From Leisingera caerulea DSM 24564 (GTDB lineage: Bacteria; Pseudomonadota; Alphaproteobacteria; Rhodobacterales; Rhodobacteraceae): a DNA stretch of 64,000 bases. The stretch is taken from assembly GCF_000473325.1 (NCBI RefSeq), contig NZ_KI421513.1, positions 2,117,217 through 2,181,216 of the forward strand. The letters run 5' to 3'. Below the pieces are notes generated by a model. The model worked only from the letters and a program-made list of their open reading frames with translations. It was not told the origin of the DNA and did no database searches. Both the position numbers and the translations under genes were made by a program. Below are positions 45,358-52,064 of the stretch, piece after piece (position 1 is the stretch's first letter; each line of letters opens with the position of its first letter).

Positions 45358-46449
45358 TCAGGCCGGCTTCTGCATCTGGTTTTTTTCAAGGCAGACCAGA
45401 AACCGGATCGTCGTGCCGGTCTCCGCGTGCGGATCGCACCAGATTGTCCCGTTATGACGCTTGGCGATTTTGGCGCAGGTTGCCAGTCCAAGACCGGTGC
45501 CAGGCTGGTCGCTGCCGCGCTGCAGCCGCTTGAAGGGCTCAAATATCTTCTCCCGGTACTCCGGCGGAACGCCAATCCCGTTATCCGCCACAGAGATCAT
45601 CACGCCGGCGCCCGCGGGTTCGGCGGTCACGGAGATTTCGGGTGTTATGCCGCCGCTGTACTTGATGGCGTTGCCGATCAGGTTTTGCAGCAACTGCACG
45701 ATGTCCGGCGGGAAACACGAGACGCTCAACCCGCCGGGCTGCCATTCGATCCGGGCGCCGGATGCCGCAAGATCCTGCGCCATAACAGCGCGCAGGCTGT
45801 CGAACAGGCTCTCGACAGTGACATATTCCGCGGTGCCATTGCTGTGCGGGTTGATATGGCTTGCCAGCCGTTCAATCAGCTCGGAGGTCTTGCGGACCGA
45901 CTTTTTCATCAGCTCCAGCTGCCGTGCCACCTCGTCAAATTCCCCGTCTTGGTAATCCTCCTGAATCTGGTCGCTGAGAAACTTGATGGCCCTGAGCGGC
46001 GCCCGCATGTCATGCACCAGCACATCGGAAAACAGCCGCAGCTCATTCTGCTGCTCCTGGATTCTCCAGCGCATTTCCGCGACCTTCAACCCGTTGGCAA
46101 CCATCCGCTGGAGAGCCTCGGCAGTAATGGCGGATTTGGGAATGTAATCGCTGGCGCCTGCCAGAATGACACTCTTGGCGATTTCCTCGTCGCCTTGGCC
46201 GGTGGTCATAAACAGAACTGCCCGCGGCCAGGTTGCCGTCAGCTGCGCGATAAGGTCCAGCCCGGTGCCGTCCGGCAGAAGGTAGTCCAGAATGATCACG
46301 TCAACCGGCAGACCGGCTTGAGACAAGGCGCCTTTGCCGCTGTCCGCCTCGAAGACCTTGGCATCCGGGTGCGATTGCAGCAGCAGCCTGCGCACGAGCT
46401 TCCGGTCACCAGCGTCGTCGTCAATGATCAGGATGTTGAGAACCGTCAT
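45358..46449 (-). CDS. Receiver-histidine kinase hybrid (REC-HK)
   Basis: A 363-residue cytoplasmic kinase with an N-terminal receiver domain (acidic DDD at 10-12, phospho-acceptor Asp55, Lys105). A short linker leads to a HisKA domain with His146 (VHDMRAPLRAIKF). The ATPase domain has intact N (NLIGNAIKY), G1 (DNGIGVP), F and G2 (GTGLGLA) boxes. No membrane segment. I used the ATG at 46449, with AAAGG upstream, which lies 29 bases inside the preceding receiver gene. This is the only catalytically complete kinase in the four-gene cluster. Confidence 0.9.
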   Translation of the reverse strand: MTVLNILIIDDDAGDRKLVRRLLLQSHPDAKVFEADSGKGALSQAGLPVDVIILDYLLPDGTGLDLIAQLTATWPRAVLFMTTGQGDEEIAKSVILAGASDYIPKSAITAEALQRMVANGLKVAEMRWRIQEQQNELRLFSDVLVHDMRAPLRAIKFLSDQIQEDYQDGEFDEVARQLELMKKSVRKTSELIERLASHINPHSNGTAEYVTVESLFDSLRAVMAQDLAASGARIEWQPGGLSVSCFPPDIVQLLQNLIGNAIKYSGGITPEISVTAEPAGAGVMISVADNGIGVPPEYREKIFEPFKRLQRGSDQPGTGLGLATCAKIAKRHNGTIWCDPHAETGTTIRFLVCLEKNQMQKPA

Positions 46450-46915
46450 CGGACACCTTTCTGATGTGAACTTCGGGCAGTTCAACGATGCGCCAGTAAT
46501 GGTCGAGCGTCGCCATCAGGTCGACAAACATGTCTCCGGCATTGGACTTGAGAATGTAGCCGGCCACATTGTTGGCATAGGCCGCAGAGATGTCCCTTTC
46601 GTCCTCAGATGTTGTCAGCACGATAAACAGGATCTTGCGCAGCACAGGATCGGCGCGGATCTCCTCCAGCAGTTCAATGCCGTTTTTCCGGGGCATGTTG
46701 ATATCGCTCAGCACCACGAAGCTGGGCGGCGGCACCTGGCTCATTTCGCCGCGCAGGAAGGCCAAAGCCTCGACACCGTCGGTGAACCGCTGAATCGGAT
46801 TGGCGATCTTGGCCCGGCTGAAAGCGCGGCGCAGGGCCTTGGCATCGCCGTCATCATCCTCGACAAGAACGATATTAAGGGCAGGGCGGCCTGCGGGGGG
46901 ACTGTTGAGTGTCAT
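46421..46915 (-). CDS. Single-domain response regulator (Rcp1-like)
   Basis: A 164-residue receiver domain without output domain, resembling the Rcp1 type that partners phytochrome-like or sensory kinases. Acidic pocket EDDD at 19-22, phospho-acceptor Asp71 (LSDINMP), Thr101 and Lys123. Its start overlaps the stop of the degenerate kinase gene by ATGA. It may relay phosphate between the kinases and the other receivers in the operon. Confidence 0.9.
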   Translation of the reverse strand: MTLNSPPAGRPALNIVLVEDDDGDAKALRRAFSRAKIANPIQRFTDGVEALAFLRGEMSQVPPPSFVVLSDINMPRKNGIELLEEIRADPVLRKILFIVLTTSEDERDISAAYANNVAGYILKSNAGDMFVDLMATLDHYWRIVELPEVHIRKVSDDGSQHPDH

Positions 46916-48201
46916 GCTGGGGTCTCCTTGCTCAGGGCCTCCTGCGGCCAGGTGCAGCGAAAACAGCTCCCGCTGGCAGCGGACCGCTGGGCTGCGGTTC
47001 GGCCGACGGCCGCCATCACGCGTTTCTTTCTCAAGGCCCGCCCTCTGCCGCGGCCTTCAACGTGTTCCTCCGGTTTAAGTTCTTGGAGGATTTTTGAGCT
47101 TTTGGTGCGGTGCTGCTTTGCAAGTGCGGGGGGATCGCCGCACACTGAAAATTGGCCGATGGACTCTCCCGCGTTGACACCGATCCAGACAGTGCCTTTT
47201 GCTTGGTCCCGGTGCCGGATGCCGGTTGTCATCTGGTTCAGCAGACCCGCCTTTAGCGGAAGCCTGGGCAAAGGCAGCCCTCTGTTGCGGCGGGAAGACT
47301 GCACTATCCTTCCAATCCGGCCATGCTGCAGCACCGGGCTTCCTGCCTGCCCTTCCGCCCTGTCCGCGGTGACCTCAGGCGCGCGCGTCCGGCGGGTGCG
47401 CAAATGAGGCAACAATTCTTCCAGCAGCCAGTTCGAAGCGTTTTGAATGCTCCGCAAGGCGGCTTTCGCACTGTGACAGGCGAAACAGGCAGGCTGCTCC
47501 AGATTTTCCTTGGACCTCCGGAGCGGTATGGCCAAGGGCGGCATCCGGTCTTCAGCCAAATTGCACTCGGTTATAACCTTGATAGCGCATGGAAAAAAAT
47601 CATCACGCCAAGGGCGGGCCTGGCTGGCGGCAATTTCGGGCGGCATCTTTGACCGCTGCTTCGTGCCGCCGAGACAGGCATCGCCCGCGTCTCTGAGGCG
47701 ATGCAGAATATTCTCCGGCGCGTTCAAAGGCAGCAGTTCCGGATCGCTATGACACAAGTGCGTGGCCGCCCTAACGCTTCCGGCCGGGTCTGGTGGCAGG
47801 CCCCGGGTATTCACCCGCCAGGCGTCCTGCAAGCTGCCGCCACTCATCAGAAAGCGCAGCCGGGTACCGGAGGCCCCTTTGGTGATGGGGCTGGCAGACA
47901 TCTGGTCCTGTTTCGTTTGCGATTGTTCCACGGCCAGGCCGACCGGATCCAGCTGATTGCCGCTGATGCAGCAGCGCTTGACGCCGGCGATTGCAGGGCG
48001 GGAGCCAAAGGCGTTCAGGTCCGTTTCCAGATCAGCAAAATCCCCGCCAACATAGCAGGCGCGGATTTGGTTATTCGTGGCGAGTTGCTGAGTTACCTGT
48101 TTCCCAATACGCTGTTTTGCGTTCAAGCAGCCGGCAGTGAAGATCAGCGGCAGAGAAACCCCTATGACGCAGACGACAGTTAAGGCAGCTTTGGTCTTCA
48201 T
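46912..48201 (-). pseudogene. Degenerate sensor histidine kinase (open frame, motifs lost)
   Basis: A 429-residue open frame. The N-terminus has one hydrophobic segment (4-24) and a polar sensor-like part. The middle is compositionally odd. From about 230 it can be aligned by eye to a histidine kinase. The H-box is recognisable as FACHSAKAALRSIQN, keeping His243, and NASNWLLEELLPHL follows the expected dimerisation helix. The N-box is missing around 325-335. The G1 box reads CGDPPAL instead of DxGxGI, and the G2 box reads GRGRGRAL instead of GxGxGLAL. The ending ASGSCFRCTWPQEAL is typical again. ATP binding looks impossible. Its stop overlaps the next receiver gene (ATGA), so it still sits in the operon. 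It may be a pseudogene or a non-catalytic pseudokinase. Confidence 0.7.
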
Positions 48202-48300
48202 TCATTTGCGCTCCGCAAGCGGTTTGAGGTTCTCTGCCCCTGGATGGGCAGGCATCTGCCCAGGGCGGCAGGAAGAACTGCTGCCCGCAGTGGCAGGCCG

Positions 48301-49032
48301 TTATTGCAGCAAATTGGGTGAAGCTTTGGCGGTAAACTCCCGGGTGTCTTCGATCACGCTGTCCAAGTCGTCCATGAACACAACAAGATCCTTGCAGCTG
48401 CGTTCCAGCATCGAGACATCCGACAGAACGGCGGGGGGCACGCCGCCATCCTGACGCGCCTGCGACTTGATCACCCGCACCCCCGCGAGCGTCCTCCTCA
48501 GAAGCAGCCGAAGATCGGGCCCGCAGCCGACGATGAACCGCTGGAAGATCCGTTTCAGCTCCTTTTCTGAGGCCCGAGCGCTGGACAATTGGCCATAAAG
48601 CGCCCGCCGCTCCAGCGCTGAGGCGATGGATTTCATCAGGGAATCCGTCGTCAGCTCATCCTTGACGATGTAATCCGCGCAGCCCCGGCGCATGGCCTCG
48701 ACGGCGATATGATAATTTGTCGCGCTGGTCAGCATTATAGGAACCGCCTGAACTTGATCTTCATGAGTCACCAGCTGCTTCAACGCATCCAGCCCAGTGT
48801 CCATGCCCAGGTTGTGATCGAGGAACACCAGATCGAACTGCTCCGTGTCCAGCTGCTGGCGCATTTCATCCAGGTTTGCTGCTTCGTGGAATTCAGCCGT
48901 CATCCCGGCTTTGCGGCACAGCTTGTTCAGGCGCAGCCTGTCAACCTCATCATCATCAACGGAGAGGATGTTCAGATTGACAGCCTGCAGAACCGGCGGG
49001 GCGCCCTTGTTGGGGAACTGATTATTTCTCAT
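48301..49032 (-). CDS. Response regulator with helical output region
   Basis: A 243-residue protein. The N-terminal receiver domain (about 20-145) has acidic DDD at 26-28, phospho-acceptor Asp72 (LDHNLGMDTG) and Lys in YIVKDEL. The C-terminal 90 residues are predicted helical with no DNA-binding motif that I recognise, so a phosphotransfer or protein-binding role is possible. It is first in the leftward two-component cluster, 99 bases before the degenerate kinase. Confidence 0.85.
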   Translation of the reverse strand: MRNNQFPNKGAPPVLQAVNLNILSVDDDEVDRLRLNKLCRKAGMTAEFHEAANLDEMRQQLDTEQFDLVFLDHNLGMDTGLDALKQLVTHEDQVQAVPIMLTSATNYHIAVEAMRRGCADYIVKDELTTDSLMKSIASALERRALYGQLSSARASEKELKRIFQRFIVGCGPDLRLLLRRTLAGVRVIKSQARQDGGVPPAVLSDVSMLERSCKDLVVFMDDLDSVIEDTREFTAKASPNLLQ

Positions 49033-49697: not shown

Positions 49698-52064
49698 TCA
49701 GAAGTCCTCCCATTTGCTTGCCCCGCCGGTGCCTGTTGCCGCGGGCCTTGCTGCGGCCCCATCCGCAGGCAAGCCAGGCTCATCCTTCCAGAAATCATCC
49801 GGCGCCTCAGTGCCGTGCGCACTGGGCTTCGGTATCACCTGGTGGTCCGGGCGGGGTGCTTGCTGCGCGTCAATCGTGAAATGGGACACGAGTTCAGCCA
49901 GTTTGCTGGAATCGGTGTGCAGCATGTGGCCGGCCGCGGTGGCCTCTTCGACCATGGCCGCGTTCTGCTGGGTCACCTGGTCAAGCTGGGTGACGCCGGT
50001 GTTGATCTCCGCCAGCCCGGTCGACTGCTCGGCTGCGCCCTCGGCAATGCCGGACACCAGCTGCGAGATATGGGTGACCCGTTCGACGATGCTTTGCAGC
50101 GCCTCACCGGCCTTGCCGACCAGATCCACGCCGCGCTCCACCTGTTTGGAGCTGTCGCTGATCAGGGTCTTGATCTCCATCGCCGCGTCCGAGGAGCGCT
50201 GCGCCAGGGCCCGCACCTCGCTGGCAACCACGGCAAAGCCCTTGCCGGCCTCGCCTGCCCGCGCCGCCTCGACGCCTGCGTTCAGCGCCAGCAGGTTGGT
50301 CTGGAAGGCAATGTCGTCGATCACCGAGATGATCTGGCTGATGTGGTTCGAGCTCTGCTCGATCTCGGTCATGGCAGCGACGGCATTCCCGACCACGGAG
50401 CCGCTGGATTCGGCTTCGGCGCGCGCTTCCTCCATCGTCGCCTCAACGCTGCGGGCGCCTTCGGCGGCGGATTTCACCGACGCGGTCAGCTCATCCAGTG
50501 CCGCCGCGGTCTCCTCCAGCGTGGCGGCCTGGCTCTCGGTGCGGTGGGAGAGGTCATCGGAGGCCTGGCTGATCTCCTCGGCCCCGTTGCGGATACTGCC
50601 GGCCGCCACGATCACTTGCTGCACTGTCTCCTTCAGGGTTTCCAGTGTCAGATTGTAGTCATGGCGCAACTGCTCATGATCCTTCGGGAAGGCCTGGGTG
50701 ATCGGCTGTGAGAAATCCCCGGCGGACAGCCGCACCAGGCCGGCGCTCAGGCTTTCGACCACGAACTGCTGCTGCTGCTGCAGCTCGTTGCGGCGTTCTT
50801 CGGCAAGGCGTGCCTGTTTCAGGTCGGCCTGCATCGACACCAGTGTCTTGCCGATCTTGCCGATTTCGTCGTTGCGTGCAGCGGCGTCGATGCTGGTGTC
50901 AAGATCGCCCGCGGCGACCGCCTCCATGTGCCTGCAGATTTTGTCGACCGGGCGGGTGATCGACCGCGCGAACAGCCAGCCAAGGAAGGAGACAGCCGCA
51001 GCACAGGACAGCGAGATCAGCAGCATGATCTGGCGCTGGCGGACCGCGGGCGCCAGAATTTCCTCCCGGTCCAGCTCCGCAACGATCGCCCAGTTCAGGT
51101 CGCGGAAGGTAAAGGGCGCGGTGACGGCGGCAACCGTGCTGCCATCCGGCTTCTGGACGGCCGGGTGGAACGAGACATCCTGTGCGTCCCCGGCAGCCGG
51201 TGCGCTGCCCGTAGTGGCGCTGCTGGAAAAGGCAGCCTCGATGTAAGGCAGGCCCGGCAGCTCTTCCAGCACGCTGTGCCGGCCTTCGAGGCGCGACTGG
51301 GTGCGGGCCCTGAAGTCGCCGCCGATCAGGTAAACATCCAGAGTCTTCAGCTCGCCGCCGAAATTGGTGGTGATCAGGGCGATCTCGTCGATGGCCACCT
51401 GCAGGGCAAACACCCCTGCAAACCGGCCTGCGTTATCCACGATCCGGGTCGCCGCAAAACCTGCCGGGGCGCCTGCACTGGGTTCATAGTCTTCGATATC
51501 AGAGAAATAGACCCGTCCGGCTTCGCCTGCTTCGGCCATCCGGAACGCCTTGGCCAAGCCTGTTTCGCGATACGGGCCAGAGACCATGTTAGTGGCATAG
51601 TCGCTTTCCTTGGTGACCGAAAAGACCACATCCCCTGCCGGGTTGATCAGGAAGATGTCATAAAAGCCCATCCGCTCCATCACCTTCTGGAAGGCGGGAT
51701 GGTTGCGTTCGAAGTGAAGATCATAAGGCGATGCGGCGGACGCAAACATCGACAGGTTTTGAACCTCGGCCTGGCCTGCACCGTCCCTGGTGGACCAGGT
51801 TGCGGTCAGATCCTTCATCGCGTCGGCGGTTGAGGGGACCGAGGCAATCGTCAGGATGGCCGCTTCAATCCCTTCGAAGTAGGATTGCAGCGCCAGCTCC
51901 CGGTCCTGCACCAGCGACTGCATGAAAACTTCGCTGTTGTGGAGCACCCCGCGCCGGAAGTTGCTGGTGCTGACGGCAATCAGGACGGCGGTCAGGACCA
52001 GCGCAGTGCTGACGATCAGCAGCGGCAGCTTGTGGGCGAGCTTCATGGATCTCAGAATTTTCAA
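49698..52064 (-). CDS. Methyl-accepting chemotaxis protein
   Basis: A 788-residue inner-membrane chemoreceptor. Helix 1 is at about 12-32, followed by a periplasmic double-Cache-like sensor (about 35-340), helix 2 at about 345-368, a HAMP region and a second HAMP-like stretch. A long cytoplasmic signalling coiled coil has the hairpin tip [36 protein letters not shown]. The C-terminus is WEDF, resembling CheR/CheB docking tails. The start at 52064 is a TTG with GGAGG 5 bases upstream; an ATG 18 bases inside has only a weak signal. No che genes adjoin. Ligand unknown. Confidence 0.93.

Follow-up and report, generated by a model that had tools for sequence, protein, structure and literature searches.

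A histidine-kinase remnant in a Leisingera caerulea operon: a proposed case of selection on the open frame rather than on the protein

In the window, that is, the whole stretch of 64,000 nucleotides of Leisingera caerulea DSM 24564 that was analysed (contig NZ_KI421513.1, positions 2,117,217 to 2,181,216), a four-gene operon of the order RR1 - HK - REC - REC-HK carries, in the place of its histidine kinase (HK), an open reading frame that, judged by alignment, is the wreck of a membrane sensor kinase of about 753 aa. The amino acids of this remnant drift and its frame is kept; the simplest cause of this combination is that the receiver and REC-HK genes need translation through it. In our estimate there is about an even chance that selection keeps the open frame and not the protein, translation of the receiver and of REC-HK being dependent on the remnant. 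The original prediction, made from this DNA, had offered two readings, decay that has so far produced no stop or a selected pseudokinase; the evidence assembled here points to a third one outside both, namely selection acting on the frame. The features concerned are the following.

48301..49032, minus strand: RR1, upstream response regulator, 243 aa
46912..48201, minus strand: degenerate histidine-kinase remnant, open for 429 codons, ATG start, TGA stop
46421..46915, minus strand: REC, single-domain receiver of 164 aa, the downstream gene
45358..46485, minus strand: REC-HK, a REC-HisKA-HATPase protein, 375 aa as listed from TTG
48203..48205, minus strand: upstream ATG at the ancestral start position, out of frame after a 2-nt length change
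47800..48201, minus strand: N-terminal block, residues 1-134, with TM1 and the start of the sensor domain (alignment, hydropathy), 49% amino-acid identity to G019
47683..47790, minus strand: scrap of the sensor domain, residues 138-173, aligned to G019 residues about 238-279
47305..47670, minus strand: PAS-end and DHp block, residues 178-299, with about 189 codons missing ahead of it (TM2, the HAMP-like linker and the greater part of PAS)
47473..47475, minus strand: codon of His243, aligned with the invariant H-box His
46915..47304, minus strand: CA (ATPase) block, residues 300-429, with the second Asn of the N-box changed to Thr, G1 lost and the G2 glycines kept
46924..46929, minus strand: AAGGAG, a Shine-Dalgarno-like motif (read from the sequence, its role putative) ahead of the receiver and within the last codons of the remnant
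46912..46915, minus strand: ATGA overlap of the remnant's stop TGA and the receiver's start ATG

Here and below, G000 denotes the genome of the window and all other G numbers the compared genomes. At the 5' end of the remnant (48196-48205) two ATGs overlap (ATGAATGAAG); going by its position, the upstream one is the ancestral start, and the downstream one, 4 nt past this old and now out-of-frame start, is in frame. TM1 is retained, with a maximum 19-residue hydropathy of 2.30; residues 20-25 read IFTAGC (48127-48144), where G019 has Tyr in the place of the Cys, a somewhat lipobox-like string whose likeness we take to be probably due to chance. For REC-HK, whose HisKA match falls slightly below the Pfam cut-off, inspection makes the ATG at 46449 a likelier start than the listed TTG. 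The operon is adjoined by a methyl-accepting chemotaxis-like protein (49698-52064; assigned by inspection), and a similar stretch stands beside the operon of G471, with 50% identity over the C-terminal part of that protein. Outside the window, at G000:C7:1984461-1986036, the same genome holds a paralogous kinase with an open frame of 527 codons and an adjoining receiver gene; kinase-receiver pairs of this kind are present in many congeners.

Among 21 genomes of the genus, G019 is the sole one whose match extends past the kinase core. Its counterpart is an open frame of 784 codons (753 aa from the likely start), to which the window protein aligns in three pieces; it matches the Pfam families HATPase_c, PAS and HisKA and, below the cut-off, a bacterial sensor domain, whereas the window protein matches no Pfam family at E<=1. 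Compared with G019, the remnant is short of a net 324 codons, a loss absent from the original prediction; parts of the sensor domain, TM2, the HAMP-like linker, most of the PAS domain and 27 codons between DHp and CA are missing. A scan of genome contigs for an orthologue found none, the matches being two loci at 24-25% identity. The mean AlphaFold pLDDT is 41 for the window protein and 77 for the G019 kinase, on nearly the same shallow alignment (11 sequences) and as a prediction only.

A working HisKA-type kinase has a phospho-accepting His in its H-box, together with an N-box, a G1 box and a G2 box as catalytic boxes. His243 is kept, as predicted, and falls in an alignment of 11 sequences on the invariant H-box His, within a segment that has gone from SHDLKAPLR to CHSAKAALR. 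The N-box, which had been described as deleted, is in fact present in mutated form, LLNLIANGIKHH in G019 having become LLNQMTTGIRHR in the remnant with Thr for the second Asn. Of the G1 and G2 boxes, both described as destroyed, the former is indeed lost (CDDGPGIA in G019, CGDPPALA in the remnant), and the latter keeps its glycines as G385 and G387 (GSGMGLA in G019, GRGRGRA in the remnant). Set against a functional HisKA-type kinase, the remnant has the H-box His and the G2 glycines and lacks the N-box Asn, the DxGxG of G1 and recognition by domain models, and the description of the kinase as degenerate stands. The same holds for the uninterrupted 429-codon frame on the minus strand (46912-48201), which begins with ATG, and for its ATGA overlap with the next receiver gene, TGA over ATG. 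Such an overlap of stop and start, as in a coupled operon gene, is seen in G000, G019 and G005, and the ATGA is also found at the HK stop of the intact kinases of G462 and G456 as it is in that of G019.

At the level of amino acids, the constraint on the window copy is slight or absent. The kinases of G000 and G019 differ at 36%, 35% and 48% of codon positions 1, 2 and 3, respectively; for RR1, REC and REC-HK, the same pair of genomes differs at 6-12% of positions 1-2 and at 33-37% of position 3. At conserved nucleotides, defined as identical in G019 and all aligned outgroup HKs (7-9 of 9), G000 has changed 34 of 103, 54 of 156 and 2 of 6 at codon positions 1, 2 and 3 (33%, 35% and 2 of 6); at outgroup-identical sites, G019 has changed 6 of 109, 13 of 169 and 1 of 7. 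Decay has not proceeded evenly; of the conserved nucleotides, 59 of 137 have changed in the DHp block, the highest share, and 7 of 30 in the first 87 codons, the lowest. At 54% amino-acid identity to G019, these 87 residues are also the large block that has diverged least, the later pair of large blocks standing at 35% and 38%.

An eleven-sequence branch model with wider bounds converged on an omega of 0.78 for the G000 branch (lnL -11946.33). Omega fixed at 1 (lnL -11946.50, a difference of 0.17) is not rejected, nor is 0.5 (0.85 worse); 0.3 is rejected (4.96 worse), and a single omega throughout (lnL -11970.84) costs 24.5. The same eleven sequences under tight branch bounds gave 0.82 for G000, and three-taxon fits, with the outgroup branch at its bound, gave 0.48-0.54, with a 2 lnL difference from omega 1 of 2.6-4.8. 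A pairwise fit, averaging over the constrained G019 branch, gave 0.36-0.37, and the background omega of 0.02-0.05 is rough because background dS is saturated. Of 102 invariant residues, 52 are kept, compared with 41 (sd 5) in the neutral simulation (P 0.016; 0.029 given no stop). The conserved-site, eleven-sequence omega, invariant-residue and stop-expectation analyses worked on 386 of the remnant's residues, after removal of 43 that lay in short aligned runs; the three-taxon and pairwise fits and the neutral simulation of stops used 414, with 15 dropped.

These data show the G000 kinase evolving close to neutrally in its amino-acid sequence. As in a classical pseudogene, omega 1 fits, although 0.5 does so as well; the strong purifying selection on the degenerate form that would mark a conserved pseudokinase is not seen, and the omega of 0.78 together with the likeness of positions 1 and 2 argues against one. 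Between the two readings of the original prediction, dN/dS thus favours decay over the pseudokinase. Since omega 0.5 fits, the three-taxon values lie at 0.48-0.54 and invariant residues are kept in excess, weak or past protein constraint is possible; it may have acted early on the G000 branch or may be a weak present one.

The frame behaves differently from the residues it encodes. There is no stop in its 429 codons, the other five frames having 5-19, and none of 2000 first-order Markov sequences was free of stops. When the G019 codons are evolved neutrally until 31% of positions 1-2 have changed, 7.3 stops arise on average and the P of none is 0.001, the no-stop P being 0.05 at 10% change and 0.24 at 5% change; from the changed residues (229 of 386), 8.1 stops are expected if all changes fell on the G000 branch (P 0.0003) and 4.1 if half of them did (P 0.02), all these P values for G000 being too small because the frame was picked, in the original prediction, for being open. 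Homologous blocks of at least 50 nt are all in phase 0 with G019 under six scoring schemes. Out-of-phase islands of up to 22 nt are also present and may be noise, and two of the six schemes contain a pair of compensating 2-nt changes near residues 197-204. The stops and frameshifts of a classical pseudogene are thus not found: there are no stops, the long blocks are in phase 0, and there is a single 2-nt change at the start.

Openness arising by chance from composition was considered and set aside, as the Markov sequences, the neutral simulations and the stop counts all oppose it, although for G000 taken alone, which was selected as open, chance may still account for it. A sequencing error is unlikely, given that the divergence is spread across the gene and that G005 is in a similar state.

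Two long remnants are present in the data, those of G000 and G005. The remnant of G005 is free of stops for 242 codons, from ATGAAACTGAAG (a start word common to G019) to a TGA overlapping the receiver ATG, its other frames having 2-10 stops; under a Markov model of its own composition, this openness has a P of 0.002, and this remnant was not selected for openness. Its codons 1-112 align without gaps and in frame to HK residues 1-112 (score 91, the maximum of 100 shuffles being 50). Global alignments of its middle part scatter across all three phases with no confident alignment, and an in-frame deletion is therefore not demonstrated for G005. A hydropathy scan of the G005 remnant found no hydrophobic segment, and no kinase core is recognisable in it, so that a protein role is hard to picture. 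The last 12 codons are alike in G000 and G005 (WPQEALSKETPA and RPQEALTKDTAA, respectively) and contain the Shine-Dalgarno-like motif of the receiver. In G002 and G003, the 5' end is kept as frames of 55 and 54 codons that begin at the same start as the G005 remnant and stop 37 and 36 nt ahead of the receiver ATG. The view that the frame has been kept open and coupled is well served by these data, inasmuch as an open frame here is improbable as a chance outcome and is seen again in the one further long remnant found, the coupling itself being putative and read from the overlap.

Of the 21 genomes of the genus, 17 have RR1 and 18 have REC-HK; G007, G009 and G020 gave no match to the operon genes, and G008, whose contig begins inside REC-HK, was left out of the gap counts, which cover 17 genomes. 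From the RR1 match to the match of the next gene, the distance is about 2367 nt in G019 with its intact kinase, 1388 nt in G000, 800 nt in G005, and 270 and 266 nt in G002 and G003 with their short remnants. In the other 12 of the 17 operon-bearing genomes, no HK frame is recognisable and the gap is 83-239 nt (239 in G010, 234 in G014, 83-118 in nine others and 99 in G004). HK and REC are both absent from G004 (L085), where RR1 and REC-HK remain; REC-HK is retained in all 17. In G010 and G014 (L070, L071), close relatives of G000, one forward frame is open across the whole RR1-REC spacer of 239 or 234 nt, which may be an N-terminal extension of the receiver or chance.

In the sister genus, RR1 has a match in 8 of 18 genomes searched, with a full-length kinase adjoining in six of the eight (G454 and G458 included); the other two, G328 and G460 (L090, L100), have lost HK and REC and kept RR1 and REC-HK. 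With REC absent, the distance to their REC-HK match is 386 and 371 nt, which speaks against a sharp gap limit. In the genus of G330, three of four genomes searched have RR1, and all three have all four operon genes. A survey of the family found an RR1 match in 10 of 394 genomes, all inspected at the locus except G356; besides G000, G328 and G330, all four genes are present in G335, G189, G251 and G392, and no kinase of this type occurs downstream of RR1 in G180 and G253 within the stretch examined. The search for an intact orthologue called for by the original prediction thus found one in G019, with intact HKs standing in the corresponding place of the operon in other genera, and the kinase is therefore, from this distribution, most likely ancestral. 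Two trees of flanking genes (365 codons, 17 genomes; G011, G013, G004, G008 and G328 left out) place G005, G002 and G003 outside the group formed by G019, the G000 clade and the rest (support 79 and 77), so that the decays of G000 and G005 look independent. The placement of G019 inside its group has a support of 36 and 66 in the two trees; the kinase was therefore lost or reduced on two branches or more of the genus, one of the trees requiring three.

Under selection on the frame, ribosomes loading at the old kinase start would travel on to the ATGA, where termination followed by reinitiation would lead to translation of the receiver and then of REC-HK; their passage would also shield the transcript from Rho, and reinitiation, Rho shielding or both may be at work. 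Stops and frameshifts would be purged and in-frame deletions tolerated, and the gene would shrink in frame until the untranslated gap was short enough to dispense with the remnant. The gap of at most 239 nt in members of the genus without a kinase frame fits such selection, a pattern noticed post hoc; as a counterpoint to coupling, the receiver has a Shine-Dalgarno-like motif of its own. The stricter claim, that a dead gene is held open purely as a track for ribosomes, with selection acting on length modulo three and on freedom from stops and leaving the amino acids aside, and with in-frame deletions as the only exit until the untranslated gap is short, is a tentative one to which we give somewhat less than an even chance. 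In that case, the series of 753, 429, 242, 55/54 and 0 codons within one genus would show the path of in-frame shrinking.

Other readings of the same data have to be weighed against selection on the frame. Plain decay of a dispensable kinase, the frame being still unbroken by luck and G005 a second such coincidence, agrees with an omega of 1 that is not rejected, with conserved sites changed alike at positions 1 and 2, with a GC content at codon position 2 of 0.52 against 0.39 in G019, with the 12 of 17 genomes of the genus that have no recognisable kinase frame and with the low mean pLDDT (41 against 77 for G019). It nonetheless fits the frame poorly, as no stop is present where 4-8 are expected, the long blocks have kept their phase, and G005 holds a separately decayed remnant that is open too and shares both start and end, and we regard it as rather unlikely.

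It is improbable that the remnant is a selected pseudokinase, its protein acting as a His-phosphate acceptor or dimer partner for REC-HK: the branch omega is 0.78 with 0.3 rejected, the DHp block is the most changed of all, which is the opposite of what a dimer or acceptor role needs, and the kinase core is lost in G005 and the whole frame in 12 of 17 genomes, yet REC-HK persists in 17 of 17. On the other side stand the retention of His243, of several DHp residues and of the G2 glycines, the 52 invariant residues kept where 41 are expected, the fit of omega 0.5 and the bacterial precedents described in PMC9491836. Equally doubtful is the idea that a short N-terminal membrane peptide is being preserved, with the remaining frame as baggage read to the stop; while the retained TM1 and the low divergence of the first 87 residues would suit it, G005 keeps its frame without any hydrophobic segment, and the idea would give no reason why the other 300 codons have stayed open.

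Should selection on the frame alone prove real, an operon can contain dead genes that pass for intact ones, so that an open frame says little about whether the protein works, and such remnants would be annotated as kinases or as hypothetical proteins. Gene loss from operons would then also follow a measurable rule, each change in length being a multiple of three until the gap becomes tolerable. Pseudogenes, translational coupling and pseudokinases are each already known. Among the papers that literature searches on the theme turned up, judged by title and opening of the abstract, none was recognised as a description of frame-only selection in an operon pseudogene, which is weak evidence of absence.

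Several known systems resemble the remnant in part. The intact HKs (753 aa in G019; G454, G458 and others in the sister genus) occupy the same place in the operon and share in-frame homology with it over several blocks; they keep the sensor, TM2, PAS, DHp and CA together with all catalytic boxes, whereas from the window copy a net 324 codons are missing, as are G1 and the second Asn of the N-box. In operons, translation of neighbouring genes can be coupled through an overlapping stop and start such as ATGA; the remnant shares the ATGA, but coupling here would start from a gene without a working protein. Ordinary bacterial pseudogenes, such as those of Mycobacterium leprae described in passages of PMC2753549, show the same near-neutral amino-acid change and loss of domains; according to those passages, 67% of the transcribed pseudogenes with stops hold at least five, though 25 held none. 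The window remnant, by contrast, has no stop in 429 codons. The histidine pseudokinases ChrS-Ala245fs and DivL, as PMC9491836 describes them, are kinase-like proteins whose CA domain is broken or can be dispensed with and which stand next to a working system, as is the case here; they act as proteins, whereas the amino-acid constraint on the window remnant is weak or gone.
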